Assembly: GCA_037833965.1 (NCBI GenBank)
Contig: AP031357.1
Span: forward strand, 12,792,001 to 12,856,000
Length of the DNA stretch: 64,000 bases
Direction of reading: 5' to 3'
Origin: Marchantia polymorpha subsp. ruderalis
Taxonomy: Eukaryota; Streptophyta; Marchantiopsida; Marchantiales; Marchantiaceae
This document shows positions 7,561 to 57,403 of this stretch, in pieces (the stretch's first letter is position 1; the number at the start of each line of letters is the position of its first letter). The position numbers and the translations under genes are program-made. Below the pieces are notes generated by a model. The model saw only the letters and a program-made list of their open reading frames with translations. It was not told the DNA's origin and did not search any database.

Positions 7561-7689
7561 AAGAATGAGATTTTTTTTTCACAACTATAACTATTTTTAA
7601 TTAGTTGAATTAGAACAAAAAATTACTCAACAAAAATATACAATTATAATATGGTGAATTATCTATAGTTGCTATGCCAACAATTCATG

Positions 7690-19715: not shown

Positions 19716-21118
19716 AGTTGTAATTATTCAGTAATCGTTTATGAAATAAAAACCTCAACATCACTTAGTGAGGCTATGGTTACTTTTCTTTTACAGACTG
19801 CAAAATGTACGACGAATATTGGCAAGCAAACCCAGATGTCACCAAATAATTGCAGTATCTTCAGGTGCTTGGAATTTCTTCAGACATTGTCTACAGCATA
19901 TTGTGCAAAAGGAATATTCTCTACATAGTGCATCTCCGATACAATGACAGATGTAGGCTTTCGGTTGAGAGAACAATCCGTCAAACTCTCTCGAGTATTA
20001 CTTGGCACTAACGCAGCTAACTTACTGCTGGTCATGTCTTGCTGGAAATGTGTGAAAAGTTGCGAATATACCCGTCGATACTCTCCATATCCTCGCAATG
20101 CAATGGGAGTTCTGACAAAGCAGTTTTCTTCTTGTCAGTCTCCAGTCGCGAATGCTTGTTCAATCTTGTGGAGAACTCCATGCCAAGGATAATACAGAGG
20201 TATTCCCCGTGTGACACCTGCCGATGACCAGGAACCCATGGGGCTTCCCTGACCTTGCGCTCAGAAGTCAGGAGAGAATTGTCCGCCTTTGATTCTCATT
20301 GAGGAATTTGAGATAGCGCAGGAGAATGGTTCCTTTGTCGGCGCTTGTGACCAGTTCCGTGAGGTTACACTTCGGTCCGAAGACCTGAAAGACCTATCCG
20401 CTTCGCAAGCAGCGAGGATAATAGTGGACGCGGACTCCATCTTCGACAAGTACCGGACTTATATACTCTACAATAAGACTTACTTGGTGCCCCCTCTACA
20501 AAGAGGCTTGTTCCACATAGGAAGTGAGTAGATGCTGCGCCGAACTTATGAGTAAACTCCGCTTCACACGCCGTGGTTTATCCTTCCTCTAGCTAATGCA
20601 CCAATCAATTAAGTTACGAAGAAAGATGTCCAGAACAAAGATGCACTTTCAACTACTACTGGTGTGAACCTATATCCATTCTCGAAAATTTCGTGTCAGT
20701 AGCTTGTATCCATTTGCTATTTTTAAGCTATATTGCCATCTGACAGCATTTTCGAAGGCCCAAATATCGGTGAAAAAAGATCAGATCCATGCAGAACAGC
20801 ATATATCTTGCTCATGTTTTTGACATTTGCTGATAACAAGAAAGGGCGATGCATGGAGTTTGACTCGTTCAAAATGTGGCATAGACAGCCGATCAGAAAA
20901 GAACTTCGCTTGTCAAACTTTCAGACCTGAAACTTGTACCTTGTTTGTGGACATTGAGATTTATGTGGCATGTATTGTACAGTTATCTTCATTGAAGATA
21001 TTCAGAGAAGACCGTTAAATTTTTGATCCGGTGAGCAAGTACACAAACAATTTGTGTTCTAATACATTAAATTTGGACTAGCATGTCATAATAATTCAAA
21101 AGACATATTTTTAAATTA
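19716..21118. other. Moderate-GC region; possible unidentified exon
   Basis: The plus-strand frame 20289-20531 (80 codons) is acidic, polar and protein-like (…EEFEIAQENGSF…), ending in a hydrophobic-aromatic stretch. I recognise no family. No confident splice sites tie it to neighbouring frames, and other frames overlap it on both strands. It may be an exon of an unidentified gene or chance. Confidence 0.25.
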
Positions 21119-34875: not shown

Positions 34876-35421
34876 TCCCTAAATTTTGACTCTGTCGAGG
34901 CCATGTCGAGGTCTTGTGACATGATCTGTCTCCCTGTGCGACTGGGCCTTACACCCCCTGTCACGGAATCTTCCAAAAAGTTTCCAAAACACAGAACGTC
35001 ATATTCTGGCCATTGACGGTGGATTTGGAGGAGCAGACGGTGCCCGTTTTCGGCCTAAATTTTTTGTGCGCATTTGTCACAAAGTTAGCTATCTTTGAAG
35101 ATCCTTGGAGAAAATTATTTCCACTTTCAAGATTCTCCGGGGAGGTCAAAACGGGGAAGAAAAGTAATTTTTGGCAATTTTGATCTTCCCAACTTAAACG
35201 GTAAATAAGTTTTCACTCGGAGGTTGGGATTGCAAATTTTAAAGTATCAGATTGGTTATCTTGTGGGCTATTTTCCAATGGTCCTGGATTTTCTCATGGA
35301 ATTCATTCTTGAGGGTAATTTTTCCACATTTACTGCTATATATCAAGGGGGAGAGAGTTTGGAGAACCATATTGACATTGAAATAGCACCGTAGGAATGT
35401 CAAGAGACCAGGTGAGGCATC

Positions 35422-36230
35422 ATGGGAACAATGAAGGTCGGTGGCACCAAGTTTGAGATTGCCAAGTATGATGGACGTACGTACTACTTGTTGTGGGAAC
35501 AAAAAGTGAAGGGCATGTTGAAAGCTACCGATTCTAGTAAGCTTTTGAAGACGAAGCCGGAAGATGTGCCTGTAGAAGACTGGAACGACATGCAAGAAAG
35601 GGCGGTGAACACAATCATGCTCCAGTTACAACCCCATGTGATACGGCAGCTTGAAAAGTATGGAGATTGTTCGTCGTTGTTCGAGGCTCTCCAGAGGAAG
35701 TACCATCAAAAAGAGTTGTCCAATCAACTCTATACATTTTTGAAGCTGATGAGTTTTAAGATGAAGGATGGTAATATGAAGGTACAAGATCACACTGATG
35801 CTTTCAATGATCTTGTGTTGGATTTACAAAACCTTAGTGAGGAATTGAGTGACGAGAGGAAGGCTCTTCACCTGTAGAGTTCACTACCTCCTTCATACAA
35901 GAATCTATCTCAAGTACTTCTACATCGAGATAGAAGGACCATCACCTACAATGAGGTGGTGAGTGCATTGAAGACAGATGAGCTTCAACAAAAGATGATG
36001 CAGCAGTCTCTATCCTCTACATTGTCCGGAGTGGCGCTGAATGTGAACCGAGGTAGGTCACAAAAGCAGACGACGGGTGGAGACAAGCAAAAATTCAGAT
36101 CTAAGTCTCGAAGGAAGTCTCAAAACAAGAAGACCTTGCTATGTTAAAAGTGTGGCAAGGCTGGCCACATGAAAAAGGATTGTCGTGGAAAAGCAAGTGA
36201 TTCATCCTCTGCAAATGCAAATGTTGCAAG
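35422..36230 (+). pseudogene. Copia GAG (broken)
   Basis: The first 151 codons are open and show the plant copia GAG core (residues about 13-25 KYDGRTYYLLWEQ; about 45-50 WNDMQE; then a region matching the LW..L...Y). A TAG at 35875-35877 interrupts the family's …LLSSLPPSY segment, which continues in the same sense. A basic stretch follows, then a CCHC zinc knuckle (KCGKAGHMKKDC, about 36148-36185) whose first Cys precedes a TAA. The protein normally forms the virus-like particle and binds element RNA. It lies about 2.2 kb downstream of the primer site, and the leader is lengthened by the inserted gypsy fragment. Confidence 0.85.
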
Positions 36231-37745
36231 TGCTGACCTTGAGTATAATTTGCTTAATGATGATTATGCTTTATGATGCCAGAAGTATGCACTCTGCACA
36301 TGATCTGAAAGAAGAGATGATGAATGGATTCTTGATGTGCTTGTTCATACCATATATGTCACAATAGAGATTACTTTAGTTCTTACCTTGCATTGAACGG
36401 TACATTCTTGATGGGAAATGATCACCCCTGTCAAGTCGTCGGTATTGGATCTATGAGGATTATGATGTTTGATGGAGTAGTTCGTACATTGACGAATGTG
36501 AGATTTATTCCTGAGATGAAAAAGAACTTGATTTCTCTTGGTGTATTGGAGACTAATGGTCATCGATGATCCGTAGCTGATCGTGTACTTCAAGTCAAAG
36601 CTAGGGATAAAGCTGTCTTGAAAGGTAACAAGCATAGAAATCTATATGTATTAGAGGGTAATACTGTGTGCGGGGAAGTCAATGTCACTAGATCTCGGCC
36701 TGAGATGGCTCAGATTTGGCATTCCATAATGGGCCATATGAGTGACAGGTATTTGACTTTGCTTCGCAAAAAGAATCTGTTACCCGGTTTGGGTAAGATT
36801 GATTTAGGTTTTTGTGAGCATTGTGTTATGGAAAAGCACCATAGAAAGCCTTTTGGTGTTGGAATTTATAGCTCCAAGATGATTCTTGAATATGTACATA
36901 GTGACGTGTGGGGTCCCTCTCCAATAGCCTCACTATCTGGCAAGTGGTACTATGTAGTTTTCATTGATGACTACTCAAAATTTGTTTTGGTTTATTTTCT
37001 CAAGGAAAAGTCTGAAGTCTTTGCAACTTTCAAAAGTTAGAGAGTCCAAGTTGAGACTCAGACGGTGCACAAGATGAAAGCCTTAAATGTGCGAGTGAGA
37101 TATTTGCGTTCGGACAATGGCGGGGAGTATATCTCCAAGGAATTTGAAGAATATTGCAGAGCAGAGGGAATTACTTGCCATCTCACCACGGTTTATACTT
37201 CGCAACAAAATGCTGTTTGTGAGCGATTCAATCGAACAGTGTTGGAAAAGGTGCAAAGTATGATGAGCCAATCAAGTTTACCATATAAATTTTGGACTGA
37301 AGCTGTGAATACCTTAGTGTACTTGGTAAATCTTTCTCCTTCAAGTGCAATTGATTTTTCAACTCCGTTTGAATTGAGGCACAAGCAAGTTGCTGATTAC
37401 AGTCGATTAAGGATATTTGGTTGCATGGCTTACCCTCTTATACCTAAGAAGCATATGACCAAGTTGGATACTACTTCCAAGAAATGTTGCTTTCTTGGTT
37501 ATGCAAGTGGTGTGAAGGGTTATAGGTTATGGGATCATGTAGCTTGTAAGGTGATTGTTAGTAGGGATGTATCTTTCGACGAGCCCAAATCGTTGAAAGA
37601 GGGAGAGAATGCTCATGCTCCCTGTACTGACAAGGGCAAATCTTCACTTCCCAATATTGTTGAGGGGGAGATTGATCATTATGGATTTAATGATAGGCCA
37701 CAAGGAGAGCTTCCGGAACAATCGGAAGGTGTTTCTCATCAGTAG
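36231..37745 (+). pseudogene. Copia protease and integrase (broken)
   Basis: The protease start is damaged: near 36325 the usual WILDSGCSYHM block reads only WILD before a small deletion shifts the frame. Integrase is better kept: the GAG-pre-integrase HHCC finger (WHSIMGHMS…FCEHCVMEKHHR, about 36717-36850), first catalytic Asp in YVHSDVWGPS (about 36893), second in LRSDNGGEY (about 37108), and Glu in QQNAVCERFNRTVLEK (about 37203-37250). A TAG at about 37038 and several frame changes break the polyprotein. Integrase would insert the DNA copy into the genome; this one cannot be made whole. Confidence 0.88.
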
Positions 37746-39337
37746 GAACTAGAGGAGCAAGAAGTCATTGATGAGCCTCTTATTAGAGCACCAAATGATC
37801 GAGATCAGCCAAAAATGTCTACTCGGAGATCATTATATGGTGTGAGTAGAGCTCCTACAAGGTATGGTTCATGGGTCAATTCATTTAATCTTCACGACCA
37901 AGAGCTTGAAGATAGAGATGATGATGGTAATGCGTTGATCTTGGAGGAAGGAGAACCTTCTTCATATCGTGAGGCTCAAGCTTCTACTGATAAGCTTGAG
38001 TGGGATGCTGCAATGGAGAGAGATGCAATCTTTTAATGACAACAAGACTTGGAAGCTAGTTAAGCTTCCACCTGAATAATAAGTGGTGGACTCTAAATGA
38101 GTTTACAAGCTGAAAGATAGTTTGACGGAGAGTGTGGGGAAAATCTATAAGGCCAGATTGGTGGCCAAAGGATTCACAAAAGAGAAAGGCGTGGACTATA
38201 ATGAGGTATACTCATCAGTCGCAAAGTATGACACTATCAAATTACTTTGTGTACTTGTTGTGTTATTTGATCTTATACTAGATCAAATGGATGTTGTCAC
38301 AAATTTCCTCTATGGTAGCTTGGATGAGATTATCTTCATGAAACAACCAATAAATTTTGTGAAGAAGAGCCAAGAGGAATTGGTCTTTAGATTGTTAAAG
38401 TCTTTGTATGGACTAAAGCAAGCTCTAAGACAATTTAACAAGCGGTTTGATGATTTTATGTGTGCACAAGGTTTCAAACGGAGTTCGTTTGATCCATGTG
38501 TATACATGAAACGTATGAGTAATGAGATCTTTGGTTTTGTTATTCTAGTACTCTATGTGGATGACATGCTTATCGCGGCTAGAGATGGATCTGAAGTGGA
38601 TAATCTCAAATGTCTTTTGAGTTTGGAGTTTAGAATGAACGATCTAGGAACGGCCAAGAGGATCTTAGGGATGGAGATTCATTGAAACAAAAATGGCAAG
38701 CTATGGTTGACTCAAAGCAAGTATGCTGAAAAGGTACTTGCACGATTCAACATGGAGAATTGTAAGCTAGTAAGTACTGCATTGGCTCCCCATTTCAAGT
38801 TGTCATCAGCTCAATGTCCAACAAATGTGACAACAAAAGGGTTGATGTCCAAGATCCCTTACGATAAGGCGGTTGGAAGTCTAATGTACTTGATGATTTC
38901 CACAAGACCTGATATTGCCATGGCGATGGTCAAGGTTAGCAGGTACATGTCGAATCCAGGAAAGATGCATTGGGAGGCAGTGAAATGGATTTTCAAGTAT
39001 CTAAAGGGTACGATGGATTATGGTCTATCTTTTGATGCAAAGTTACTCAATGTCAAATCCTTGATTGGCTATGTGGACGCTGACTATGGACAAGATGGAT
39101 GGAAGAAAATCTACAACTGATTATGTATTTACACTTGGAGGTGGGTGCATAAGTTGGAGGTCTACTTTGCAGAAGTGCGTAGCTCAGTCGACTACAGAGG
39201 CCGAGTATGTGGCAGCAGCTGAAGCAGCGAAGGAAGCTATTTCGTTGGATAGGCTTGTTGCGGAAATGGGATTGTCACATGATATTGTGAATCTTCATTG
39301 CGACAATCAAAGTCTCTTACACCTTGCTGTAAATCAG
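37746..39337 (+). pseudogene. Copia reverse transcriptase and RNase H, truncated
   Basis: The RT start contains two stops (about 38078-38100), then 187 open codons with ARLVAKGFTKEKGVDY, QMDVVTNFLYGSLDE (first catalytic Asp kept), SLYGLKQALRQF and LYVDDMLIA, the copia YVDD pair. A TGA interrupts GMEIH. The connection region follows (SKYAEKVLARF…SLMYLMISTRPDIA), and after a frameshift near 39100 RNase H (AQSTTEAEYVAAAEAAKEA, LHCDNQSLLHLA). Homology stops at about 39337, where an antisense unrelated element begins. The rest of RNase H and the 3' LTR are absent, so the element was cut off. Confidence 0.88.
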
Positions 39338-40763: not shown

Positions 40764-41207
40764 GTATACATATGCCGGGCGCACATACCTGCGAATTTTC
40801 AACCCCAACGGAGCTGCTGTCAAGAAGTTGTCATTTCGAAACTTTGAGTTTAGGGATTTGAGCATGAATCTTGCGGGGGCCATATCTTCTTGCTGGAGTG
40901 TAAACAGGAGCTGAGATTTGATGGGCTTGTTCAAGACGGCCGGGCGCACATACCTGCAAATTTTCAGCCTCAACAGAGCTGCTGTCAAGAAGTTGTCATT
41001 TTGAAACTTTGAGTTTAGGGATTTGAGCATGAATCTTGCGGGGGCCATATCTTCTTGCTGGAGTGTCAACAAGAGCTGCGATTTGATGGGCTTGTTCAAG
41101 ACGGCTGGGCGCACATACTTGCAAATTTTCAGCCCCAACGGAGCTGCTGTCAAGAAGTTTTTGTTTCAAAACTTTGAGCTTGTGTAACATCTTGCAAAGT
41201 TGGGTTC
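40764..41207 (+). promoter_or_regulatory. LINE-1 5' UTR with tandem monomers (about 165 bp)
   Basis: Units starting at the word GGGCGCACATAC recur at about 40776, 40941 and 41106, a period of 165 bases, with about 2.6 units in total. Each contains GGAGCTGCTGTCAAGAAG and GAGCATGAATCTTGCGGGGG. The array ends just before the ORF1 start at 41208. Tandem promoter monomers in a LINE 5' UTR are known from rodent L1. Promoter function here is inferred from position only. Antisense open frames across this array are by-products of the repeat. Confidence 0.7.
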
Positions 41208-45692: not shown

Positions 45693-46902
45693 GCTGAAAA
45701 TTTGCAGGGGCGTGGAGTTGGGTTGCGCGCTCCAGCCTGCAAAATTTCACGCATTTTGGAGTTGCGACGCCGAAGTTCACGGATTTCTCAAGTTTCGAGT
45801 TGGAGTTTTCGAGTGTTGGGGTCGAGATTGTTTCTTCGCGTCTGAGTGTCCACGGAAGCTGAAAATTTGCAGGGGCGTGGAGTTGAGTAGCGTGCTCCAG
45901 CCTGCAAAATTTCACGCATTTTGGAGTTGGGACGCCGAAGTTAACGAATTTCTTTAGCGAAGAGTGTGAATTGCGAGTGTTTCACGTGGTCACAAAAATG
46001 TTCAGACATTTTTATCTTTTTGAAGAATTATGATCTGAGGCTGAAAAGTTTTGAAGACTTGAAGAATAATATTCGGCAGTAGCATAAAAAGTTTGAAGGT
46101 TAACGGACGCTTGATTCAGAAGTTACAGCCCATTTGGAGTTTCGACTTTTTGTTTCGAGTGTTCCGGTGGTCACAAAAATGTTCAGACATTTTTATCTTT
46201 TTGTCGAAGCATGATCTGAGGCTGAAAATTTTTGGGGACTTGGAGATTAATATTTGGCAGTATTATAAAAAGTTTGAAGGTTAACGGACGCTTGAGTCAG
46301 AAGTTACAGCCCATTTGGAGTTTCGACTTTTTGTTTCGAGTGTTCAGGTGGTCACAAAAATGTTCAGACATTTTTATCTTTTCGACGAAGCATGATCTGA
46401 GGCTGAAAATTTTTGGGGACTTGGAGATCAATATTTGGCAGTAGCATAAAAAGTTTGAAGGTCAACGGACGCTTGAGTCAGAAGTTACAGCCCATTTGGA
46501 GTTTCGACTTTTTGTTTCGAGTGTTCCGGTGGTCACAAAAATGTTCAGACATTTTTATCTTTTTGACGAAGCATGAACTGAGGCTGAAAATTTTTGGGGA
46601 CTTGGAGTTCAATATTCGGCAGTAGCATAAAAAGTTTGAAGGTGAACGGACGCTTGAGTCAGAAGTTACAGACCATTTTGAGTTTCGACTTTTTATCTCG
46701 AGTGTTCAGGTGGTCACAAAAATGTTCAGACATTTTTATCTTTGCGACGAAACATTATCTGAGGCTGAAAATTTTTGAGGACTTGGGGATTGATATTCGG
46801 CAGAAGCTCATCAAGTTTGAAGGTGCATGGACGCTTGAGTGAGAAGTTACAATATTTTTTGGTGTTTCGACCTAGAATTTAGAGTGTTTCGGTTGATACG
46901 AC
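45693..46902 (+). promoter_or_regulatory. LINE-2 5' UTR: seven tandem monomers (165-182 bp)
   Basis: Units begin with a GCTGAAAA-type word at 45693, 45858, 46040, 46221, 46402, 46583 and 46764. The first two are 165 bases apart, then 182, then four steps of 181. The 181-base units share TGGTCACAAAAATGTTCAGAC and GTTTCGACTTTTTGTTTCGAG and differ by only a few bases. The first two are a diverged monomer type (GGGGCGTGGAGTTG, TGCAAAATTTCACGC). Short open frames of about 63-82 codons repeated here are products of the array, not genes. The array leads directly into ORF1 at 46903. Confidence 0.85.
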
Positions 46903-47658
46903 ATGGCTTCTCAAGACGATATTTTTCAGCTTCTGCAAACAATTTTCGAAGAATTGAAGGAACTTCGACATGAATTCAAGATGCAACAGGCTGCTTTAAC
47001 TCTCGCACATAATCAAATTCGAGAGTTGAAGGGATCACAGAAGAACGTGGAGAAGGTGTTCAAGGATAGTGTGGGTGTGATGTGGGATGTATCTAAATCT
47101 GTGGATGACATCCAAGGGAAGGTATGCTCTCAGATGACAAGTGCGGATAGTCCTAGATTGCATGAGGTGGTCGAAAGCTTAGATTTGAAGATCAAATCCT
47201 ACGCTGAAGCTACAAAGGCTGCTCAAATCTCTTTTTGTCAAGAACAAGAGATTGAAAAGTCCAACCAGCTTGCACGTAGGAAGAATGTGAGAATTTCAGG
47301 TTTACCTGAGATAGAGAATGAAGATGTCAAGAGTGTTGTCACCAAGTTTTTGGATGAAACACTTCAGGTTTCCAATGCGGAATTGGCTCAAGCTTTTCGT
47401 ATTGGAAACAAGGGAGCTCAACCTCGTGGTATTATAGTGAAGTTTGTCAATCAAACTCAACGTGATGTTGCCTTGGCTAATAAGGCTATGTTAAAGGGAC
47501 GAAGAATATGGTTGGATCCTGATCTGACTCCTCTACAAGTGGAAGTTAGGAGAAAGGAGCTTGCGAAGGTAAAAGAGGCTCAAGAATCGGGTTTTGTTGC
47601 TTATTTACACGATGGGAGAGCAATCGTTACTCAGAGGAGGAGGGTGTCGTCAACATAG
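46903..47658 (+). CDS. LINE-2 ORF1 protein (coiled coil plus RRM-like)
   Basis: 251 codons, uninterrupted. Coiled coil at residues about 5-60 (IFQLLQTIFEELKELRHEF), a second helix at about 85-120, an RRM-like core beginning KNVRISGLPEIENEDVK at about 128, and the C-terminal segment RRIWLDPDLTPLQVEVRRKEL. It is collinear with LINE-1 ORF1 and clearly diverged from it along the whole length. It starts MASQDDIF; the LINE-3 ORF1 at 58948 starts MASQDN, which supports this start. The predicted role is RNA binding in the LINE particle. It ends at TAG 47656-47658 in frame with ORF2. Confidence 0.88.
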   Translation: MASQDDIFQLLQTIFEELKELRHEFKMQQAALTLAHNQIRELKGSQKNVEKVFKDSVGVMWDVSKSVDDIQGKVCSQMTSADSPRLHEVVESLDLKIKSYAEATKAAQISFCQEQEIEKSNQLARRKNVRISGLPEIENEDVKSVVTKFLDETLQVSNAELAQAFRIGNKGAQPRGIIVKFVNQTQRDVALANKAMLKGRRIWLDPDLTPLQVEVRRKELAKVKEAQESGFVAYLHDGRAIVTQRRRVSST

Positions 47659-47664
47659 CAATCC
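47656..47664 (+). promoter_or_regulatory. Candidate stop-readthrough site, LINE-2 ORF1/ORF2
   Basis: TAG CAA TCC again, the same nine bases as at 41943-41951, with ORF1 and ORF2 in one frame and no other stop between them. There is no ATG in that frame between the stop and WKMADV, about 27 codons downstream and inside the endonuclease. Initiation at ORF2's own ATG would therefore remove the first conserved endonuclease strand (VLLWNIRGL). Confidence 0.6.
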
Positions 47665-50600
47665 GAGAAGATAAGGGTGTTGCTGTGGAATATCCGAGGA
47701 CTTTCAACAACAAAGTATGTGAGTGCTGCTCCGATTTGGAAGATGGCTGACGTCATCAACATTGTGGAGACTTGGGAACATGAAAGCAATACTATTGCTG
47801 AGTTGGAAGGGTTTACCTTGGTGGGGTCGACATGGAACCAGAGAAGACAACATGCGGGAAGAGGTCAAGGAGGTATTGCTACTTTCATCAGGTCTCATCT
47901 TCTACCTCTCATACATCTAGAAGCTCAAGATGTTGGTGGACAGTATCATTGGCTACGTCTCGGGGTGGTTGGAGGATCTTATTGCTATTTGGCAATTTGT
48001 TATTTTGCACCATTGTCCATGGGTATCTACTCAACACGCTTTTGCAACCGAAGTGAACCATTCCATCGGCTTATTGAAGATGTTCTTAGATTCCAAAGTA
48101 AAGGGAATGTCTTTCTTGCTGGAGATTTCAATGCTCTTATACGTTGTGCTCAATTTACTCAATTTAGTGATCCCTTGGCTTCTTCTATGTTTGAAGAAAT
48201 TTACGATAGTTTGTGGTCTAGAACCTCTTTTGATCCTTCCACAAACTCTTTGACAGAGCACTTTTTGACATTTGGAGCCACTTGTAACTTGAAGGTTCTC
48301 AATGGAACCTCTCGCTTTCCCAACTCTCAGTCCAATACTTGTTTTTCCCCTACCGGTGCTAGCACAATAGATTTTCTCTTGTCTTCCTTGGTTAGTACCT
48401 CTCTGATATCCAATTTTGATGTTTTGGATCCTCAACCTGAATCAGATCATGCACCTCTTTTGTTCACACTTTCAATGTCAAAATCAATCTCTACTTCACC
48501 TTGCCAATCTCTTTTACCTTCTCCCAAGTTTCGCTTAGATCCTTGTAAAAGAGACCTTTATGCAGAACATCTACAAGATCTTTTGACTCACACCATATGG
48601 AGTCCAGATTCGCATACCGCTAGTTTACAGCTCATAGAATTGCTCAAAACTTCTGCATCGAAGTTCTTTTTGAGGCATAGTACTAGGATTGCTAAGGGTC
48701 TACCTTGCAATGGATGGTTTGACTCCGAATGCAAGCTAGCAAGGGCAAGGTCTGTTGATAGGTCTTTGGATATTCAAAGTCGGCTTCTTTTGACAAGGAT
48801 ATACAAAGACTTGGTGAAGTCTAAGAAACGAGCTTTCTTAAGAAGAAAGCAAGAATCCTTGACAAAGGACCTGATGAAGGATCCCAAGTCCTTTTGGAGA
48901 CGATTAGCTACGCCACCGTCAAAACCTTCTCTTGATTCCGAGTCTTTGGTAGCTTTTGCCGAAAAGCTCTATTTCTTTCCAGAAGCCACATCTATGCCAT
49001 ATTGCGAAGCAACACCTGGATTATTTTCGGAAGGAGAGGTGATGACTATTCTCCGAAAATTAGCAAATGGCAAATGTGAGGATTTAGATGGCTTGTCCAT
49101 TGAACTTATCAAGTGGGGAGGAGATTGTATTGGACCGGTTCTCACTAAGCTTTTGGAAGATGCTATGGTTCATGGTTTTCCATCAACTTGGTCCATGCGG
49201 AAGATTGTTCCTATTCATAAATCAGGAAGGAAGGACGTGGTGACAAACTATCGCACCATCATGGTTGGTAGTGTTTTTGCCAAGTTGTTTGGGAAGTTGG
49301 TAGAATCGAAGTTGAGCACATGGACAGAGGATTTTCAGAAGAGAGCAAAGGCCCAAGCCGGTTTTCGTCCTACATACAACACTATTGACCATATTTTGGC
49401 CTTACGTGTTTTATGGGAGAAATCCAAGGGCAATGGGAAAGCTTTATTTTGTGCCTTCATCGATTTGAAGAAAGCTTTTGATACTGTTCCTCGAAAGCTT
49501 TTATGGGAAAGACTACAAGACATTGGAGTACCGGCTAATCTACTCGGAGCTGTGGCCACTTTATACGCTTCAGTTCGAGCTAAGATTGATGCCTCTCAGC
49601 CTCAAGAGATCTCCAGCACCATTGGAGTTATTCAAGGTTGTACTCTCTCTCCTACTCTATTTGGAATATTCATAGATGATATAGAAAGGTGGTTGGATGA
49701 TTGTGAGAGTGAAGGAGTCAAACTTGGAGACTTTGTGATCAAAGCTCTTTTGTATGCAGATGATATCATATTACTAGCACGTGATGCAATTAGTTTACAG
49801 AAACACCTTGATACTTTGGCTAGCTTTTGTACTCGAAATCAGATGCAGGTCAATCTGGAAAAATCAAAGATCATTCTTGTGGGCACTAGATCCAAGTTCT
49901 CTCTCTTTTACAAGGGACTAGAATTGGAGCAAGTGAAGAGTTACAAATATTTAGGCATTGATTTTTCTCAGAATTATAGTTGGGCACTTTGTGTACAAAA
50001 GAGAGTAGAAGCTGGTTACAAAGCTCTATATTCATTGTTAAATCGATGTAGAAGAGCTCATCTAGTATCTTGGAGGCTTAGGAAATTTTTATTTAGGAGT
50101 TTAGTGTTGCCGGTGGTTCTATATGGGACACAAGTGTGGGGTCCTGGCAGTAAGAAGACAAGTTGGGAGCGTGTGGAGAGGGTGCAAAAGATCTTCTTAC
50201 AAGAAGAGTTAGGTGTAAGGAACCAAACTCCTTATGCTATTCTTCTTGCGGAAACCGGTTGTCTACCTCTTGAGGCTGAAGCTCTCTACTTGACCATCAC
50301 TTATATTAGAAGGGTGAGATCTCTTGATGCTTCTCGACTTCCTCTTCATGCTTTGCGTGCCACACGTTCCAAGGGATGGTTTGCAGATGTGATGACTTGG
50401 TCTTTGAGGTGGAATGTGACGGAATTGGATTGGGATCTGCAACCTATGGCCCTTCGCGAGCGTATTAAGGAGGAGTTTCTCAACATCATTTGGAGGAGAG
50501 GAGGCACTAAAATGCAGTTTTATCAACTTCATGTGAATCCTATGCTTATTTATTGTGAGCAAGGGTACCTTGTTGCAGAGATTGCTACATCTTTACGTCA

Positions 50601-50883
50601 TATTATTGCCAGGCATAGAACAGGATCTCATAGGCTTGGAATTGAGGAAGGACGTTGGTTGAATATTGATAGAAGTGAACGTATTTGTAGGCTATGTGAT
50701 GGGAGAAATGTTGAGGATGAAGAGCATGTGTTTATTACTTGTACTAGATATATAGAGATTCGAGTAGCGCATAAAGTAGATGTCAAGAATTTCTTTTCTC
50801 TGCTTCAACTCGAGCCTTATGATTTAGGTTGTTACATTAGAGATATTATTAGTTACCGTTCTAGTGCTTTGGGCACTAGCTAG
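47659..50883 (+). CDS. LINE-2 ORF2: intact endonuclease and reverse transcriptase
   Basis: 1074 codons without a stop when read on from ORF1. Endonuclease domain (residues about 5-270): VLLWNIRGL, VETWEHES, AGDFNAL, PESDHAPLLFTL. RT domain (about 500-800): KIVPIHKSGRK, QAGFRPTYNTIDH, CAFIDLKKAFDTVPRK, GVIQGCTLSPTLFGIFIDD, LLYADDIILLARD, YKYLGIDFSQ. After the thumb comes a family-specific region (LRHIIARHRTGSHRLGIEE) and a CCHC-type finger (ICRLCDGRNVEDEEHVFITC, about 50684-50745). All catalytic residues I can check are present. Together with the open ORF1, full monomer array and tail, this is the best candidate for a recently active element in the window. It shares about 99% of bases with the 3' copy LINE-2b. 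Confidence 0.92.
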   Translation, partial: QSEKIRVLLWNIRGLSTTKYVSAAPIWKMADVINIVETWEHESNTIAELEGFTLVGSTWNQRRQHAGRGQGGIATFIRSHLLPLIHLEAQDVGGQYHWLRLGVVGGSYCYLAICYFAPLSMGIYSTRFCNRSEPFHRLIEDVLRFQSKGNVFLAGDFNALIRCAQFTQFSDPLASSMFEEIYDSLWSRTSFDPSTNSLTEHFLTFGATCNLKVLNGTSRFPNSQSNTCFSPTGASTIDFLLSSLVSTSLISNFDVLDPQPESDHAPLLFTLSMSKSISTSPCQSLLPSPKFRLDPCKRDLYAEHLQDLLTHTIWSPDSHTASLQLIELLKTSASKFFLRHSTRIAKGLPCNGWFDSECKLARARSVDRSLDIQSRLLLTRIYKDLVKSKKRAFLRRKQESLTKDLMKDPKSFWRRLATPPSKPSLDSESLVAFAEKLYFFPEATSMPYCEATPGLFSEGEVMTILRKLANGKCEDLDGLSIELIKWGGDCIGPVLTKLLEDAMVHGFPSTWSMRKIVPIHKSGRKDVVTNYRTIMVGSVFAKLFGKLVESKLSTWTEDFQKRAKAQAGFRPTYNTIDHILALRVLWEKSKGNGKALFCAFIDLKKAFDTVPRKLLWERLQDIGVPANLLGAVATLYASVRAKIDASQPQEISSTIGVIQGCTLSPTLFGIFIDDIERWLDDCESEGVKLGDFVIKALLYADDIILLARDAISLQKHLDTLASFCTRNQMQVNLEKSKIILVGTRSKFSLFYKGLELEQVKSYKYLGIDFSQNYSWALCVQKRVEAGYKALYSLLNRCRRAHLVSWRLRKFLFRSLVLPVVLYGTQVWGPGSKKTSWERVERVQKIFLQEELGVRNQTPYAILLAETGCLPLEAEALYLTITYIRRVRSLDASRLPLHALRATRSKGWFADVMTWSLRWNVTELDWDLQPMALRERIKEEFLNIIWRRGGTKMQFYQLHVNPMLIYCEQGYLVAEIATSLRHIIARHRTGSHRLGIEEGRWLNIDRSERICRLCDGRNVEDEEHVFITCTRYIEIRVAHKVDVKNFFSLLQLEPYDLGCYIRDIISYRSSALGTS

Positions 50884-51002
50884 GGGGTTCTTTTGGTTCT
50901 CTCCTAGTTTGGAGTTGGATTGTTTGTATTGTGTTTTTTAGCCTTTTGACCCTTTGGGTCCCACGGGCTTGATCTATTTACCATTTACCATTTACCATTA
51001 CC
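50884..51002 (+). mobile_element. LINE-2 3' UTR and heptamer tail
   Basis: The 3' UTR is nearly identical to those of LINE-1 and LINE-2b, including TTTTTTAGCCTTTTGACCC and GGGCTTGATC. The tail ATTTACC ×3 plus ATTACC covers 50977-51002. The shortened last unit ATTACC is also present in LINE-2b and in the tail-only remnant at 60928-60949. Gypsy sequence starts at 51003. Confidence 0.88.
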
Positions 51003-52380
51003 ACTGTGGAGTTCGTGCCAGACACTACAGTTGAAGGCTGATAGGTTGGTGAAAAAGGCTTGGAGTGAAGCCTCTTTACCAGCAGAGCCGGAGAGGGCTT
51101 CAGCTGATCGGCTAGTTGGTGGTTCTAGCGCATTTTCTCCATTGGTTACTACACCTATTGCATGGGAGTATTCCCCAGAGGGCATTTGTTTGCTGGATCT
51201 TTTTGGTGGGATCAGCACAGGTTTGGCTGCGGTGTTGCAATCAGGTATTCTCGTACGGAGATACTTGAATGTGGAGAAGGACGAGACTGCACGTCGAGTC
51301 TCTTCACGACATGTTGCACAGTTGATGCGGCGTTTTCCTTCGTTATTGCCGCGATCAGCTGTCCGAGGATTCCAGAAGGCGTTGCCTTCAGACATTTTAT
51401 TGCTGGGGGCGCCAGACCTTGACCGCGTTGGCCATATTGATATGGTGATTGCGGGCTCGCCATGTTAGGGACACACACGTGTTGGACATGGGACAGGGTT
51501 GCATGATCCCAGATCTCGGATGTTTTGGGAGATGATGCGAGTGTTACGTCATCTCCAGGTGCAGCAGACACGTTCTCTAGCATACATTCTGTAGAACGTA
51601 CCATTGTTTGGTGACACTCGGGCCCAGTTGATGGCGAGTGTTCATGAAGTCCGAGCATGGATTGGATCAGCAGTATTGTTGGATGCTGCGAGGGTTGGAT
51701 CACGTGCTCATCGTGCACGTTTATGGTGGACCAACCTTTTGCCACGTGAGATATTGCGTCGTGCCTATGATTCTGTGCAGCGTGATCTTACACTCACCAT
51801 TGACAGTATCTTGGATGTTTTCCAACACTCTCAGGTGGTGAGAGTTGCTGATAGGTCGCATATGGCGTTGGTGAACCGCGTAGGTCAGCCTCAAATGGCT
51901 TTACCTACGTTGCTCAATTATCCGGCATCACATGCATATCGTGATGGTGGACCTAGACTACTGTGGGATAGTACAGTACATCAGTTGGTGGAGCCCAACG
52001 CTGATGAGAGAGAGCGTGCGATGGGATTTATGACTGGTGTGACCGCAGTTGCTTTAGTTTCAGAGGCTTCACGTCGTCAGGTTTTGGGTCAAGCTATGGA
52101 CTTAAACTGCTTGACGTGGATTGTGAGCTTGGGTTTGGCGGAGCAACGTCGTTTGCGCATTGATTTAGTGGTTAGTACACCACTTGTTAGCTCATTGCCT
52201 ACCGGGACGGTAGTGGCAATGGCTGGGGGCGACAAGCGAGATATTCGTCATCCTTGGAGTTTATGGGACGTGACGAAAGGACTTGCCAAAGTTGTAGCCC
52301 ATGCAGTTGGAGAGGATTCTCATGTGGAGGTGGCTACGAAGGAGGGTATGAAGAACCCTTCTTTGCATGATGTAGCGTAG
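51003..52380 (+). pseudogene. Gypsy polyprotein segment: C5 cytosine DNA methyltransferase domain
   Basis: One frame runs through with two in-frame TAGs. C5-methyltransferase motifs appear in the usual order: motif I LLDLFGGISTG (51189-51221), which binds S-adenosylmethionine; motif IV AGSPC with the catalytic Cys (51463-51465), where TAG follows in place of the expected Gln; DPRSRMFWEMMRVL; motif VI, where ENV reads stop-NV (TAG 51592-51594); motif VIII-like VGSRAHRARLWWTNL (about 51694-51738); then NADERERAMGF and LGQAMDLNCLTW for motifs IX/X. The order is not permuted, so it is DNMT3-like rather than DRM-like. The enzyme would methylate cytosine. It joins the gypsy RT downstream with only a small gap, so it is part of the element. 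Sequence upstream (gag, protease) is lost at the LINE-2 junction. Dead as it stands. Confidence 0.87.
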
Positions 52381-52802
52381 CAACCATTGATAGTGTCGTC
52401 TCCCTCTAGTGTGTCTATGGAGGAGGAATGTGAGCCATTGATTGGTTCCCAAATCACACGATGCGACGATTGACACGATTCCTACGAGACTATAGAAGTT
52501 GTTTTGCCTTCAGTATGAAGGAGTTGGGTGCGTTGATTGGACCCGGTATACGGATAGAATTGGCTAGTGATACGCCAATCTTCCGTCATCCTTATCGATA
52601 CAGTGAGATGGAGAGAGATTTGATTCGGAGTAGGACGTTGGACCTACTAGAGGCTGGATTAGTGGAGTTATCGCATGGTGAGTATGCGTCAGCCATTGTC
52701 ATGCCGGTGAAGAAGGATGTACATGGCAACTACACGGATAGGCGCATGTGTGGAGACTACCGTCCTATCAATCGGCAGACGAAGTCCGATAAGTATGCCA
52801 TG
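52381..52802 (+). pseudogene. Gypsy reverse transcriptase, first part
   Basis: After a frameshift between 52381 and 52461 the RT begins: HPYRYSEMERDLI, LLEAGLVELSHGEYASAIVM, PVKKD, RRMCGDYRPINRQTKSDKYA. It stops in the codons for KYAM because LINE-2b is inserted there. The domain resumes at 53995. No aspartic protease motif is visible between the methyltransferase and RT. This pol type (GLVELS.SEYAS, RRMCGDYRPIN) is common in gypsy elements of early land plants and streptophyte algae, as far as I recall. Confidence 0.9.
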
Positions 52803-53994
52803 ATACTTTGGCTAGCTTTTGTACTCGAAATCAGATGAAGATCAATCTGGAAAAATCAAAGATCATTCTTGTGGGCACTAGATCCAAGTTCTCTCTCTTT
52901 TACAAGGGACTAGAATTGGAACAAGTGAAGAGTTACAAATATTTAGGCATTGATTTTTCTCAGAATTATAGTTGGGCACTTTGTGTACAAAAGAGAGTAG
53001 AAGTTGGTTACAAAGCTCTATATTCATTGTTAAATTGATGTAGAAGAGCTCATCTAGTATCTTGGAGGCTTAGGAAATTTTTATTTAGGAGTTTAGTGTT
53101 GCCGGTGGTTCTATATGGGACACAAGTGTGGGGTCCTGGCAGTAAGAAGACAAGTTGGGAGCGTGTGGAGAGGGTGCAAAAGATCTTCTTACAAGAAGAG
53201 TTAGGTGTAAGGAACCAAACTCATTATGCTATTCTTCTTGCGGAAACCGGTTGTCTACCTCTTGAGGCTGAAGCTCTCTACTTGATCATCACTTATATTA
53301 GAAGGGTGAGATCTCTTGATGCTTCTCGACTTCCTCTTCATGCTTTGCGTGCCACACGTTCCAAGGGATGGTTTGCAGATGTGATGACTTGGTCTTTGAG
53401 GTGGAATGTGACGGAATTGGATTGGGATCTGCAACCTATGGCCCTTCGCGAGCGTATTAAGGAGGAGTTTCTCAACATCATTTGGAGGAAAGGAGGCACT
53501 AAAATGCAGTTTTATCAACTTCATGTGAATCCTATGCTTATTTATTGTGAGCAAGGGTACCTTGTTGCAGAGATTGCTACATCTTTACGTCATATTATTG
53601 CCAGGCATAGAACAGGATCTCATAGGCTTGGAATTGAGGAAGGACGTTGGTTGAATATTGATAGAAGTGAACGTATTTGTAGGCTATGTGATGGGAGAAA
53701 TGTTGAGGATGAAGAGCATGTGTTTATTACTTGTACTAGATATATAGAGATTCGAGTAGCGCATAAAGTAGATGTCAAGAATTTCTTTTCTCTGCTTCAA
53801 CTCGAGCCTTATGATTTAGGTTGTTACATTAGAGATATTATTAGTTACCGTTCTAGTGCTTTGGGCACTAGCTAGGGGGTTCTTTTGGTTCTCTCCTAGT
53901 TTGGAGTTGGATTGTTTGTATTGTGTTTTTTAGCCTTTTGACCCTTTGGGTCCCACGGGCTTGATCTATTTACCATTTACCATTTACCATTACC
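52801..53994 (+). mobile_element. LINE-2b, 5'-truncated LINE inserted in the gypsy RT
   Basis: Starts inside ORF2 just after the YADD motif (DTLASFCTRNQMK) and runs to the tail. It matches LINE-2 (from about 49808) almost base for base; by eye fewer than ten differences over about 1.2 kb, mostly C to T or G to A. One of them turns CGA into TGA at 53036-53038. CCATG occurs at both ends (52798-52802 and 53993-53997), the target duplication. With the insert removed, the gypsy reads KSDKYAMPTPKEIFD, the expected RT sequence. It lacks endonuclease, most of RT and any promoter. Copies of this kind are products of incomplete target-primed reverse transcription. Confidence 0.93.
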
Positions 53995-55066
53995 ATGCCT
54001 ACACCTAAGGAGATCTTCGATGTGGTGGGACATGCGAGGATTTTTAGTACTTTGGATCTTTGGGCAAGATACCATCAGTTGCCAATTCGGGAAGAGGACA
54101 AAACCAAGACAGCGTTTTGGGGCGTCAACTTCCACGGCAAGGATTGTTTGTATCAGTGGCGATTCCTCCCCTTTGGGTTGAAGAATGCACCTGCCGAGTT
54201 TCAGAGGGTTATGGACAGAATCCTAGCGGGGCTGGATTTTGTCAGATGTTACATTGATGATATCTTGGTGTTTAATGACACTGTGGAGCAACACCAAATA
54301 CATTTGCAGATTCTAGATTGTGTTTGAGCGATTGAGGGTTCATGGTTTGAGGTTACATCCTAGGAAGTGTAAGTTCTTCCATGAGAAGGTTGAGTACTTG
54401 GCTCATGTGATATACCCAGGTGGTTTAGGAGTTCAGCAAGCAAAGGTGGAGGCTATTGCACACATCCCTCGTCCCACGGATGTGAGTAGAGTTCGTGCAT
54501 TCATGGGTTTGGCGAACTACTACCGGAGGTATGTGAAGGGGTTCAGTGCTATAGCCAAGCCTTTGAACCAGTTGCTGAAGTCAGATCAGGAGTGGCAATG
54601 GGGAGATGAGCAGGATAGAGCTTTTGTTGAGCTCAAGGCCAGGTTGGTGGCCGCTCCCATCTTGAGGAGACCTATCAGAGGTCGTCCATACCAGTTGCAC
54701 ACTTATTGGAGTATGTTGGGACTTGGAGCGGTGTTGACGCAGCGTGATGATGAGAGCAAGGAGTTTGTGGTTGCGTACGCTAGTCGTTCGAACAATGCAT
54801 CGGAGTCGCGGTATAGTTCGTACGGGGAAGAGTGCTTGGCAGCGGTGTGGGCTGTGGCACACTTCAGGTGTTACTTGTTTGGTACGCAGTTCACTCTTGT
54901 TACTGATCATCAACCGCTCAAGTGGTTGATAGAGTCTGACAAGCTTACAGGGAAGCTTGCACGGTGGGCTGTCATCTTACAGGAGTACGACTTTCAGGTA
55001 GTGCATAGACTTGGAGTTGCGAACCTAGATGCCGATGGTTTGAGTCGGAACCCATGCACTAGCTAG
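53995..55066 (+). pseudogene. Gypsy reverse transcriptase second part and RNase H
   Basis: RT continues: MPTPKEIFDVVGHARIFSTL, KTAFWG, LYQWRFLPFGLKNAPAEFQ, and the catalytic CYIDDILVF (about 54247-54273). A frameshift near 54320 moves the frame for FERLRVHGLRLHPRKCKFF, VEYLAHVIYPGGLG and the connection RAFMGLANYYRRYVKGFS. RNase H follows: the first catalytic Asp block, usually LHTDWS, reads LHTYWS (Tyr at 54704-54706). Then VVAYASRSNN, EECLAAVWAVAHFR, TDHQPLKWL and ADGLSRNPC before TAG. RT and RNase H copy the RNA into DNA and remove the RNA. The frameshift and the Asp change show it is dead. Confidence 0.92.
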
Positions 55067-56475
55067 GAGGATGACACTGGAGCTAGATGGCATGGTGAGG
55101 TTGACAAGGAGATGGTGCCTGGTTGGCATGCATCTGCCTTCATGTGTTGGTTATGTGGAAATTTAAGCAGAGAGAATCATCTGACATCTTACTCTAGTCA
55201 GAGAATAGATGGTCAATCTTCAGATCCTGAGATTGAGGATGGTGGTGTGGATCAGCGTGATGTTCACGATGATGCATTGGTGTTGGAGTTCCTACGGACC
55301 AGCATGGTGCCAGGCACAATGGGTGCCAAGGAGCGTGATCGTATTCTACAACGGGCGAAGAGATACCGATTGGAGGGATCACATGTTCTCCGAGTCTGGG
55401 AGGACGGTAGGTTACGAGTAGTACCACATCTAGCTCAGAGAGCACGCATTGTGAGGCATGCTCATGAGGAATTGGGACATTTTGAAGTGAAGCGTACATA
55501 TAGCTTACTCCTTGGTCAATATTGGTGGCGTGGTATGCATACTCAAGTACAGTAGTTGATATCACGTTGCATGGTTTGTGATCGGGTGAGGGCATCATTC
55601 AATGCCCCGACACCAGTGTTACATCCATAACCCATCATGGGATTGGGTTACCGTTGGAGTTTGAACTTTGCTGGACCACTATCTTTGACTGTACAACATC
55701 ATCGGTATGTGTTGGTGATGGTGGAGCATTTCTCCAAGTGGATTGAGTTGGTGGCATTACCTAACAAGGTCAGTGAGGGAGTAGCGTATGCTTTCCTTGA
55801 CAGAGTGCTTAGTCACTATGGTGCACCGGTTGAGGTGTTGACCGATCAGGAGACGGAGTTTCAGGGTGAGTTTCAGGTCTTGTGTGACAAGGCGCTGATT
55901 GATCATAGGACCACATCGCGAGATCATCCAGAGGCGGATGGTTTGGCTGAACATGTTGTACAGACGGTGAAGAGGGCGTTGCGCAAGTATGGCCTACAGA
56001 AAGGTCATCTTGGGGACTGGGATATCCAGCTACCGTGGTTGGCCATGGAATACCGGTTCAATCGTCAAGCATCCTTGGCTTCCTTCTCACCATATTTTCT
56101 ATTGTACGGCCGAGATCTAGACTTGTCAACATCGATTCGTCGTGAGTCTAGCGAGGTGGTGAACCTTGATGACCGAAATATGTGGGTGAGAGTATGTTCT
56201 CAACGTGCAGAGCTCTTTCGGAGAGTTATGCCTGCAGCGTTTGAGAATCTTGCGATTGCTCAACATAGAGATACGCTGCGATATGCAACCATTCGGGGAG
56301 GAGATTATCGACCATCGATTCGTAGATTCCATGTGGGAGACTACGTCTATCCACAGCAGACTGCACCGACGACATTGGATGTGACGGCGGGACGCACAAT
56401 CTTGCGAGTGCGGGAGGTGTTACCTTCTGGAGTTCTCATGTTGAGGGTCGTGACGGAGTTGTTTGGAAGGATCAT
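55067..56475 (+). pseudogene. Gypsy integrase (broken)
   Basis: The zinc-binding HHCC part is readable at about 55440-55590 (RIVRHAHEELGHFEVKRT, YWWRGM, then TAG at 55553, then RCMVCDRV). The core from 55637 gives WSLNFAGPL, where the first catalytic Asp is Asn (55664-55666, AAC for GAC). VLTDQETEF keeps the second Asp and ADGLAEHVVQTVKRALRKYG keeps the Glu. The GPY-like C-terminal region ends VLPSGVLML. A frameshift near 56450 moves to the frame reading VVWKDHVRNCAPCHLPNVDG, which leads into the PHD finger. Integrase would insert the DNA copy; three independent lesions make this one inactive. Confidence 0.9.
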
Positions 56476-56691
56476 GTGCGCAATTGTGCGCCATGCCACC
56501 TCCCAAACGTAGATGGCCCTATGGACCCAAGCTTAGCGATAGTACGTGCTGGCTTGAGGTGCATGCTGTGTGGGTCAGTTGGTCAGGCGGCTCGTATGTT
56601 GGTGTGTGATAGGTGCTCTAGGGGATGGCACATGTCGTGCCTAACTCCGCCTATCGATGTTATTCCGGCTGGACGATGGGTTTGTCCTTGA
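56476..56691 (+). pseudogene. PHD-type zinc finger at the end of the gypsy polyprotein
   Basis: Reads LRCMLCG, then MLVCDRCSRGWHMSCLTPP, then GRWVCP before TGA. This is the PHD pattern C-x2-C, C-x2-C-x4-H-x2-C, with the conserved Trp two residues before the next Cys. The last Cys of the finger falls one codon after the stop (CP-stop-C; CGA to TGA would explain it). In chromatin proteins PHD fingers bind histone H3 tails. At the end of an integrase it may play the role that chromodomains play in chromoviruses, steering insertion to certain chromatin. That role is inferred. It follows the integrase C-terminus after an earlier frameshift. Confidence 0.8.
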
Positions 56692-56861
56692 TGTACTTTA
56701 GAGGGGTAGATGACTTGATCTTCACATGTTATGAATTGCTGATAGGCGACTAACGATGGGGCGACATAGCACCCGGCCTATTGGTTCGCGCACCCACGAA
56801 GGTGTATAGCATGTAGTTGTAGATAGGGCTACCTGGGAGTTAGAGGGACCTGACCGCCGGC

Positions 56862-56873
56862 TAGGGGGGCGAG
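56862..56873 (+). promoter_or_regulatory. Polypurine tract of the gypsy element
   Basis: AGGGGGGCGAG lies directly before TTGTGACATTT, the start of the terminal repeat. It is imperfect (one C) but in the right place for plus-strand priming. Confidence 0.5.
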
Positions 56874-56874
56874 T

Positions 56875-57403
56875 TGTGACATTTGATTGTGTACTCTCTC
56901 GCGCCTTATATGTGTGTATGTGTGTGCGTATGTGTATGTGAGTAGCATGTCAGCGATGTAGACTGTATGGCGATATGTATTCGCACGACAGCTGTCATGT
57001 AGTTACGAGTCGGCTCACTCAGTCTGAGCACTTACTATATTTAGACTTGAAGTTAGGGTTCGGGTCACGAGGGGTATACAGTCGGGGACGGCTCGAAGAA
57101 CGTTAGTTCTTTGAGTCGAGCCTGAAAGCGTCGGGAGCGTAGAGCGACTTTCCCCTTTGCATCGACCTGGATTCTCCGAGTGTGGAGTGGGTTGGGCTTG
57201 ACTCATGTTTGTGACGGTGACGGTTTGTTGCCAGTAGGGTAATCGACCGACGGGAATTCCAGTGGAGAATCTCCCGTTTATTTCAGTTGTGACATTTGAG
57301 TGTGTACTCTCTCGCGCCTTATATGTGTGTATGTGTGTGCGTATGTGTATGTGAGTAGCATGTCAACGATGTAGACTGTATGGCGATATGTATTCGCACG
57401 ACA
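56875..57403 (+). repeat. Gypsy 3' terminal region with two 116-bp direct repeats
   Basis: The 116-base segment from TGTGACATTTGA to GCACGACA occurs at 56875-56990 and, with a few substitutions, at 57288-57403. Each copy begins TG and ends CA. They flank 297 bases with no coding content. The first copy follows the polypurine tract; the second ends exactly where antisense E1 sequence begins. Either the whole 529 bases is the 3' LTR with duplicated ends, or the LTR is 116 bp and the middle is leader of a second, deleted copy, or it is a small terminal-repeat element. No 5' LTR remains to decide. Confidence 0.6.

Follow-up and report, generated by a model that had tools for sequence, protein, structure and literature searches.

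A Ty3/gypsy retrotransposon family in Marchantia polymorpha that encodes a DNMT3-like cytosine methyltransferase

Capture of DNA methyltransferases (DNMTs) by retrotransposons has been described for LINE and DIRS elements of dinoflagellates and for a gypsy element of Klebsormidium (PMC5890265), and DNMT3 in retrotransposons of streptophytes and dinoflagellates is mentioned elsewhere (PMC12344493). A Dnmt3-bearing gypsy with DIRS-like repeats is already published: in the text against which we compared it, KnitGypsy-Dnmt3 of Klebsormidium nitens is an intronless LTR gypsy element with DIRS-like repeats whose polyprotein includes, in the Pol ORF, a non-rearranged Dnmt3 under purifying selection (PMC5890265). 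The Symbiodinium elements SymbioDIRS-Dnmt3 and SymbioLINE-Dnmt also hold a captured C5-methyltransferase, in the DIRS case a Dnmt3 inside Pol, and represent other element classes (PMC5890265). In the self-primed elements Tf1/Sushi and Tcn1, the primer site is complementary to the element's own RNA (PMC6317226), and the plant LTR elements Bs1, Veju, and BARE-2 carry host or foreign sequence inside the element (PMC13317346).

Here we describe a Ty3/gypsy family of the liverwort Marchantia polymorpha, one copy of which lies in a stretch of 64,000 nucleotides (the window; contig AP031357.1, positions 12,792,001 to 12,856,000), the coordinates of which are used below. A sequence-only reading of the window had cited methyltransferase capture in dinoflagellates and charophyte algae as a precedent; this was correct and the precedent closer than stated, the charophyte case being a Dnmt3 in a gypsy Pol (PMC5890265). 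The Marchantia element shares the features of KnitGypsy-Dnmt3 given above, except that its DNMT lies in the gag-protease frame before a putative leaky stop rather than in the Pol ORF. It also has a PHD finger, whereas the main text on KnitGypsy-Dnmt3 contains no word beginning with PHD, and a liverwort host and apparent host mRNA in its leader further set it apart from that element as described; the circle-based explanation offered below for such repeats is absent from the parts of that paper covered here (PMC5890265). It has a DDE-type rve integrase where SymbioDIRS has a tyrosine recombinase (PMC5890265), has a DNMT, a PHD finger, and permuted repeats, unlike Tf1/Sushi and Tcn1 (PMC6317226), and, unlike Bs1, Veju, and BARE-2, carries a sublineage-specific cargo between primer site and gag (PMC13317346). 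Among the papers listed in searches of an open-licence library, no title or abstract opening names a bryophyte DNMT-bearing retrotransposon, its PHD finger, or its leaky stop. To the published picture, the present analysis adds liverwort copies, relatives spread widely over the green lineage, and a second layout, separated from the first in both RT and DNMT trees; as read from sequence, it also adds a putative leaky stop, a PHD finger, permuted-LTR repeats with 4-bp duplications, and a leader with apparently spliced host mRNA pieces.

The window copy and its genomic family

The window copy is a dead, 5'-truncated, LINE-interrupted Ty3/gypsy element encoding a DNMT3-like methyltransferase, with all of its parts on the forward strand. 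The remnant of the methyltransferase domain and its C-terminal spacer occupy positions 51028..52377, within a segment (51001-52802) that is 93.7% identical in DNA to the intact copy e5. Its translation contains what we take to be C5-methyltransferase motifs I (LLDLFGGISTG, 51190..51222), IV (51445..51471, in which VIAGSPC at 51445-51465 is followed by TAG where intact copies read WPCQG), VI (YIL-TAG-NV, 51583..51612; YILENV in intact copies), VIII (ARVGSRAHRARLWWTN, 51688..51735), and, within 51997..52107, IX (51997-52029) and X (52069-52107). The canonical order of these motifs, reported earlier from sequence, is confirmed over 51190-52107. They do share a frame as claimed, but two in-frame TAGs (51466-51468 and 51592-51594, in the translation of 50950-52470) prevent it from being open. 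When the stops are read through, at least 96 proteins match at E ≤ 0.01, with a best E of 8.5e-179, so the motifs are not a product of chance. The suggested Pfam check had a divided outcome: neither half of the TAG-split domain reaches PF00145 alone, whereas intact copies and homologues do.

Downstream of the spacer lies a conserved stop, TAG plus CAACCA (52378..52386), that matches the type I leaky context UAG-CARYYA. The modules that follow are an N-terminal part of a gypsy RT (52527..52799; unrecognised by Pfam alone), the remainder of the RT (53993..54327; PF00078, E 2.2e-18), the RT end with RNase H (54317..55066; PF17917, PF17919), the H2C2 integrase zinc-binding domain (55067..55555; PF17921), and the rve integrase core with a C-terminal part (55631..56512; PF00665, E 4.5e-11), an order that places the element in Ty3/gypsy. 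The described placement of the DNMT upstream of and collinear with RT, RNase H, and integrase holds for order and strand. It does not hold for continuity, as the RT is in a different frame (the change falls between 52387 and 52527) and is split by a 5'-truncated LINE (about 52798..53995). The earlier description left out a PHD finger (56554-56688) and 3' repeats (56872-57403). The finger (56554..56688; PF00628, E 2.6e-10) is the last part of the Pol frame in intact copies. The repeats follow a polypurine tract (AGGGGGGCG, 56863..56871), which precedes B1 in both subfamilies, and consist of B1 (56872..56990), A2 (56993..57284), and B2 (57285..57403), whose GACA forms the right end of the element; the palindrome GACAGCTGTC (56987..56996) marks the B1/A2 junction.

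With two intact copies as queries, gag, protease, and the 5' repeat A1 were all absent from the window. The queries match at 51001-52802, at 53993-57403, and in the 3' repeats, and otherwise only in a single 32-nt stretch at 19676-19707; as these matches cover only the 3' portion, the copy lacks its 5' half and is dead. On its 5' side the DNMT remnant adjoins a full-length LINE that is not part of the element (46850..51010, forward strand; ORFs at 46897-47658 and 47659-50883). A 181-bp tandem repeat (45974-46851) lies on the 5' side of this LINE, and a 165-bp tandem repeat (40774-41178) is also found upstream of LINE ORFs; both are perhaps LINE promoter repeats. Elsewhere in the window, Copia-like gag, integrase, and RT pieces were seen by eye in the ORF list at 35416-39120, and the region 4000-20000 is AT-rich (GC 21-30%), with no Rfam match and no long tandem array.

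A protein search of the same genome (241 Mb, 9 contigs) returned 586 candidates, of which 146 were scored. All 146 match, giving a family of at least 146 genomic copies, 25 of which have a gag-protease-DNMT frame of 1351-1365 aa with no stop in the match. In ten fetched copies (e1-e10), ORF1 spans 1355-1365 aa, comprises gag with CCHC boxes, a protease (DSGA), and the DNMT, and ends in TAG, so that the upstream gag and aspartic protease typical of Ty3/gypsy are present in intact copies and absent from the window copy. The CCHC boxes and the DSGA motif were identified by visual inspection of the e5 and e7 frames; Pfam found no protease in two intact ORF1s and Retrotrans_gag only below its cut-off. 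Eight of the ten (e2-e7, e9, and e10) continue after the TAG with 1042-1045 in-frame codons of RT-RNaseH-integrase-PHD that no other stop interrupts; e1 has one additional stop in this frame, and in e8 the long frame resumes only past an interruption. These copies, the wider family of at least 146, and the homologues bear out the proposal of a non-permuted DNMT3-like enzyme between gag/protease and RT. Repeats A1 and A2 are identical at 98.8-100% of aligned bases in nine copies (in e7 with 17 gap positions), which indicates mostly recent insertions; this genome contains a recent, multicopy family of the element.

The stop codon, the enzyme, and its relatives

In intact copies, gag-protease-DNMT and RT-RNaseH-integrase-PHD are two in-frame ORFs divided by a conserved UAG-CAACCA. 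CAACCA directly follows the TAG in 30 of 30 loci and in nine of the ten fetched copies; e9 reads CAACAA, which departs from CARYYA. UAG-CARYYA is the type I leaky stop context of plant viruses (PMC5382211). The conserved stop divides DNMT from RT and thereby rules out, for the fetched copies, the single DNMT-RT-RNaseH-integrase ORF that had been anticipated. We propose that most ribosomes would terminate after the DNMT while a minority read through, and that the enzyme would be made at a Gag-like rather than a Pol-like level and enter the particle.

The stop could also be an ordinary terminator, with RT and integrase coming from internal initiation or another RNA, which we regard as unlikely. 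Readthrough is argued from sequence context, and some relatives (P0130, P0131, P0132, P0134, P0146, P0238, and P0240) have DNMT and RT in one ORF, so the stop is not required in every member. An ordinary terminator nevertheless fits poorly with a TAG and hexamer invariant across the 30 loci, with the uninterrupted in-frame RT side of the eight copies, and with the second subfamily (e7 and e8), which keeps the same hexamer despite nine different bases before the stop.

By sequence and predicted fold, the enzyme is DNMT3-like. Against the PDB, homologue P0003 matches DNMT3A best (E 6e-12), then DNMT3B and 3C, ahead of DRM2 (1.6e-4) and bacterial enzymes (3.5e-4 upward), which makes DNMT3 the closest of the solved C5-methyltransferases. 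An AlphaFold2 model built from 18 sequences has a mean pLDDT of 72.7, with values under 50 at residues 1-28 and 265-303; when it was searched with Foldseek, 50 of 50 titles among the matches listed name DNMT3. The motif order I-IV-VI-VIII-IX-X is the non-rearranged one of DNMT3, and the rearranged order of DRM was not found in the window domain. ADD and PWWP domains were not found by Pfam in two intact ORF1s, whose lists hold PF00145, a sub-threshold gag, and, in one of the two, a sub-threshold unrelated match.

The DNMT is under purifying selection. Between the two subfamilies its dN/dS is 0.123 (dS 0.29), compared with 0.067 for RT, 0.076 for the integrase core, 0.115 for the PHD finger, 0.148 for protease, 0.152 for gag, and 0.65 for the spacer before the stop. 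These ratios come from open-frame copies (e1 and e8 excluded for ORF2) and are lowered because e1-e10 were chosen for open frames. Within one subfamily, the values are noisy and based on small numbers (DNMT 0.21; the region before RT 2.05, from about 2.6 changes).

We gathered 241 relatives, from 7993, 7985, and 3722 candidates scored; the counts that follow are among the matches listed. The order RT-RH-DNMT-INT-PHD (layout B) occurs in 71 of the 241, and partial forms of it in 19 more (7, 6, 5, and 1); 16 have DNMT-first orders with RT, as in Marchantia (DNMT before RT, layout A), 116 have the DNMT alone among the modules sought, and 19 have other partial sets or none. Hosts among the matches listed include Marchantia, Calypogeia, Sphagnum, Riccia, Closterium, Monoraphidium, and Cymbomonas; no Klebsormidium nitens protein is named among them. 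Many are annotated as Marchantia polymorpha and reach up to 96% identity across the full length of the DNMT query. Of 41 proteins examined, 31 contain no module other than the DNMT and terminate 56-167 aa beyond it, as expected under a shared stop at that point, and some of these ends may be contig ends. P0215 carries both PF00385 and PF00628. An unnamed extra C-terminal region follows the PHD finger in P0133, P0136, P0139, and P0143, in which the DNMT lies between RNase H and integrase. Two relatives filed as bacterial, P0041 (Obscuribacterales MAG) and P0210 (Minisyncoccia MAG), are probably misbinned eukaryotic contigs. A profile scan of viral contigs gave 26 pattern matches, none confirmed; plasmids gave no match to the element, and Rfam gave none.

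Layouts A and B fall on the two sides of one branch in both trees (SH-aLRT 98 for RT and 96 for DNMT; built by a quick method, no bootstrap). The RT tree has 46 rows, namely 6 layout A proteins, 2 genome copies, and 38 layout B proteins, the last taken from 72 of sufficient completeness, with 34 of these 38 picked at random; the DNMT tree has 57 rows through 11 additional layout A domains. In the DNMT tree, P0146 has a long branch and an uncertain position. The trees, which contain no host DNMT3, fit one joint history with one relocation of the enzyme; on trees of this composition there may alternatively have been two DNMT captures.

Terminal repeats and host sequence in the leader

Chromoviruses are gypsy elements whose pol carries a histone-reader module, a chromodomain, after the integrase. 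The Marchantia element has its PHD finger where chromoviruses have the chromodomain. In the PDB, the neighbors of this finger are KMT2D, CHD4, DPF2/3, PHF21A, and KDM5, a set that we take to include readers of the unmodified H3 tail. We suggest that the finger would steer integration.

The outer anatomy of the element is Ty3/gypsy-like at its ends and DIRS-like inside. A1 adjoins the left flank and starts with TGTC, and B2 ends the element on the right with GACA. Where both ends were scored (seven copies), the 4-bp flanks are equal in every case, the ends read TGTC/GACA, and GACAGCTGTC forms the internal joint, giving the TG..CA ends and short target duplication of Ty3/gypsy; e7 shows the same arrangement of ends and joint by eye, e3 was scored without its right end, and A1 was not found in the stretch fetched for e1. 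Instead of two complete direct LTRs there is a permuted arrangement, A ... B-A-B, which rules out the standard two-LTR anatomy and corresponds to the split direct repeats of DIRS elements. In eight of nine copies, the sequence directly after A1 (mostly ACTCGAAGAACT) matches the reverse complement of 11-13 nt within A; in e4 the complementarity is just 6 nt. In eight of the nine copies printed, the A2-B2 joint connects the U5 end to the first base past the polypurine tract; e3 differs. With the post-A1 bases and the polypurine tract taken as primer sites, a classical LTR would be B-A, and A ... B-A-B equals that LTR in circularly permuted form.

The match of about 12 nt inside A to the reverse complement of the sequence that follows A1 leads us to infer that reverse transcription is self-primed, in which case the RNA would start at AGTTCTTCGAGT inside A. 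The ends of the cDNA would then be joined into a circle, the end of A to the start of B, and the integrase would cut the internal palindrome GACA-GC-TGTC between B and A, with loss of the GC, to yield A ... B-A-B. A circle is one way to explain the repeats, and the same structure could also arise by a DIRS-like template route.

The leader between primer site and ORF1 differs among sublineages. The leaders of L031-L050 (for example L039:577-3420) are mosaics containing pieces of host genes, some without introns. We searched the genome with five of the ten leaders (e6, e5, e3, e2, and e9), and each contained pieces that abut or nearly so in the leader and lie apart in the genome. In e5 there are six from C8:424060-426298, two from C8:10533111-10533746, and two from C2:16619631-16620284; e2 has five from C7:8670463-8672109, and e9 has four from C4:17219302-17221775 and two from C8:345309-345725. 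The e6 leader has three pieces (78-86% identity) from C8:17049734-17051111 that lie 4-51 nt apart in the leader, and e3 has two from C2:23975488-23976395. Among the captured frames are part of a Sec63/Brr2-type helicase (E 6.6e-35) and part of an AAA ATPase (E 3.3e-7).

Six gaps between host pieces were read. Four (two at C8:424-426 kb, one on C7, and one on C4) fit GT..AG introns within a 1-4 nt overlap of the pieces, and a fifth, on C7, does so only given a one-base slip. In three of the five searched leaders, then, the gaps that were checked between host pieces are compatible with intron removal, and pieces in either orientation are represented. The e5 and e2 pieces are antisense to the element, which makes capture of spliced mRNA the simplest reading; the e9 piece is sense, and splicing of the element's own RNA could also account for its missing introns. 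The simplest route of capture would be template switching in the course of reverse transcription. We rejected e3 as a case of splicing: neither strand of its 276-nt gap offers a GT..AG, and the missing stretch persists in a sister copy (C2:30887380-30887690), where it agrees with the host locus at 298 of 301 bases, so that e3 lost it by deletion. Leaders are specific to sublineages rather than private to each copy: among the five searched, the complete e5, e6, and e3 leaders turn up again at one or two further loci, while full-length matches to the e2 and e9 leaders came from the locus of origin alone. Strict growth beside the primer site was likewise rejected, given a piece of about 370 nt in the middle of the e5 leader relative to two other loci.

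Possible roles of the methyltransferase

The explanation that we favor, by a modest degree, is a DNMT-bearing gypsy element with a leaky stop that primes itself, integrates from a circle, methylates its own DNA, and is steered in its integration by the PHD finger. Before or at integration, the DNMT would methylate the element's DNA de novo, and the element would enter chromatin pre-marked, that is, tolerated, quiet, and less visible as foreign. Some DNMTs of DIRS retrotransposons confer de novo CG methylation in yeast (PMC5890265).

Decay of the genomic copies bears on methylation by the host. In the window copy, counted on both strands, C-to-T changes affect 39 of 389 CHG, 19 of 434 CG, and 40 of 1545 CHH sites, compared with 17 of 2168 for changes of the A-to-G type (CHG over CHH, p 2.5e-9). 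Across 27 copies, a count that leaves out L001, L012, and L023, the values are 62/8018 at CHG, 48/7749 at CG, 105/29157 at CHH, and 36/42494 at A/T sites. The 30-locus count, which includes non-belonging sequence (L001 and L012), shows a weaker CHG excess (102/8938 versus 266/31508 at CHH and 248/45402 at A/T sites). With decay in the order CHG > CG > CHH, the copies have probably been methylated in the germ line, most at CHG; this pattern therefore indicates host CHG silencing and not a CG enzyme of the element, and the scars say nothing in favor of the element's own enzyme.

Two other roles for the domain appear improbable to us, and to the same degree. One is that the main targets of the DNMT are the host, whose silencing it would alter, or competing elements, which it would repress, rather than the cDNA of the element itself. 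Its position before a leaky stop predicts much DNMT per particle, and because the published list of five Marchantia methyltransferases (MET, CMTa/b, and DRMa/b) has no DNMT3, the element would supply an activity missing from the host (PMC5784723). Against such a role, a part of the polyprotein would be expected to be packaged with nucleic acid, and Klebsormidium nitens, the genome of which carries such elements, has a land-plant-like methylome (PMC5890265). The other is that the domain is kept for a non-catalytic role in nucleic-acid binding or particle assembly, or for RNA methylation. The Klebsormidium enzyme produced no methylation in yeast, a result called inconclusive in that report, as human DNMT3B failed too (PMC5890265), and in domains that follow RNase H the catalytic cysteine of motif IV is often preceded by WE and not WP (WECQ in 25 and WPCQ in 24 of the 59 motifs found among 88 complete domains). 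Opposed to this are the 55 complete domains with no RT or RNase H before them, some of which may be truncated proteins of the other layout: motif IV was recognized in 45, 35 of them with WPCQ, EN(V/T/A) in 52, and HRxR in 45. DNMT3A is, moreover, the best PDB match for both layouts, more weakly so for a layout B domain (E 8.7e-7).

That the methyltransferase is a separate host gene merely beside a gypsy fragment, as the flanking LINEs and the frame difference from RT in the window could suggest, or a chance match, is ruled out with near certainty: the genomic copies contradict the absence of any other methyltransferase beside this RT type, which had been named as the refuting outcome, and in the fetched copies the DNMT is followed by the element's own stop and RT side (with an A repeat on both sides in nine), 4-bp target duplications bound all seven scored copies, and relatives hold the DNMT within single polyproteins.

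A more encompassing reading joins five parts, and we offer it tentatively, as doubtful in its entirety. An old green-lineage gypsy clade would have taken a DNMT3-like enzyme and relocated it once, to a place before RT or between RNase H and integrase; in liverworts the enzyme would lie before a leaky stop and be made like a structural protein; the element would integrate from a self-methylated two-LTR circle cut at the palindrome; the PHD finger would target chromatin; and the leader would collect host mRNAs, some of them spliced, in successive sublineages.

If this is true, the PHD finger and the methylase together would rebuild, inside a retroelement, the pairing of histone reader and methylase found in DNMT3. 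Retroelements are usually targets of DNA methylation, and a methylase under selection in an element that multiplies raises the question of whether self-methylation is of benefit to it. Marchantia is genetically tractable, and as its published methyltransferase list is without DNMT3 (PMC5784723), effects of the element's enzyme could be observed free of any DNMT3 activity from the host. With this repeat anatomy, integration from a circle by a DDE integrase becomes open to testing, and the leaders would record the host transcripts that the element has met.
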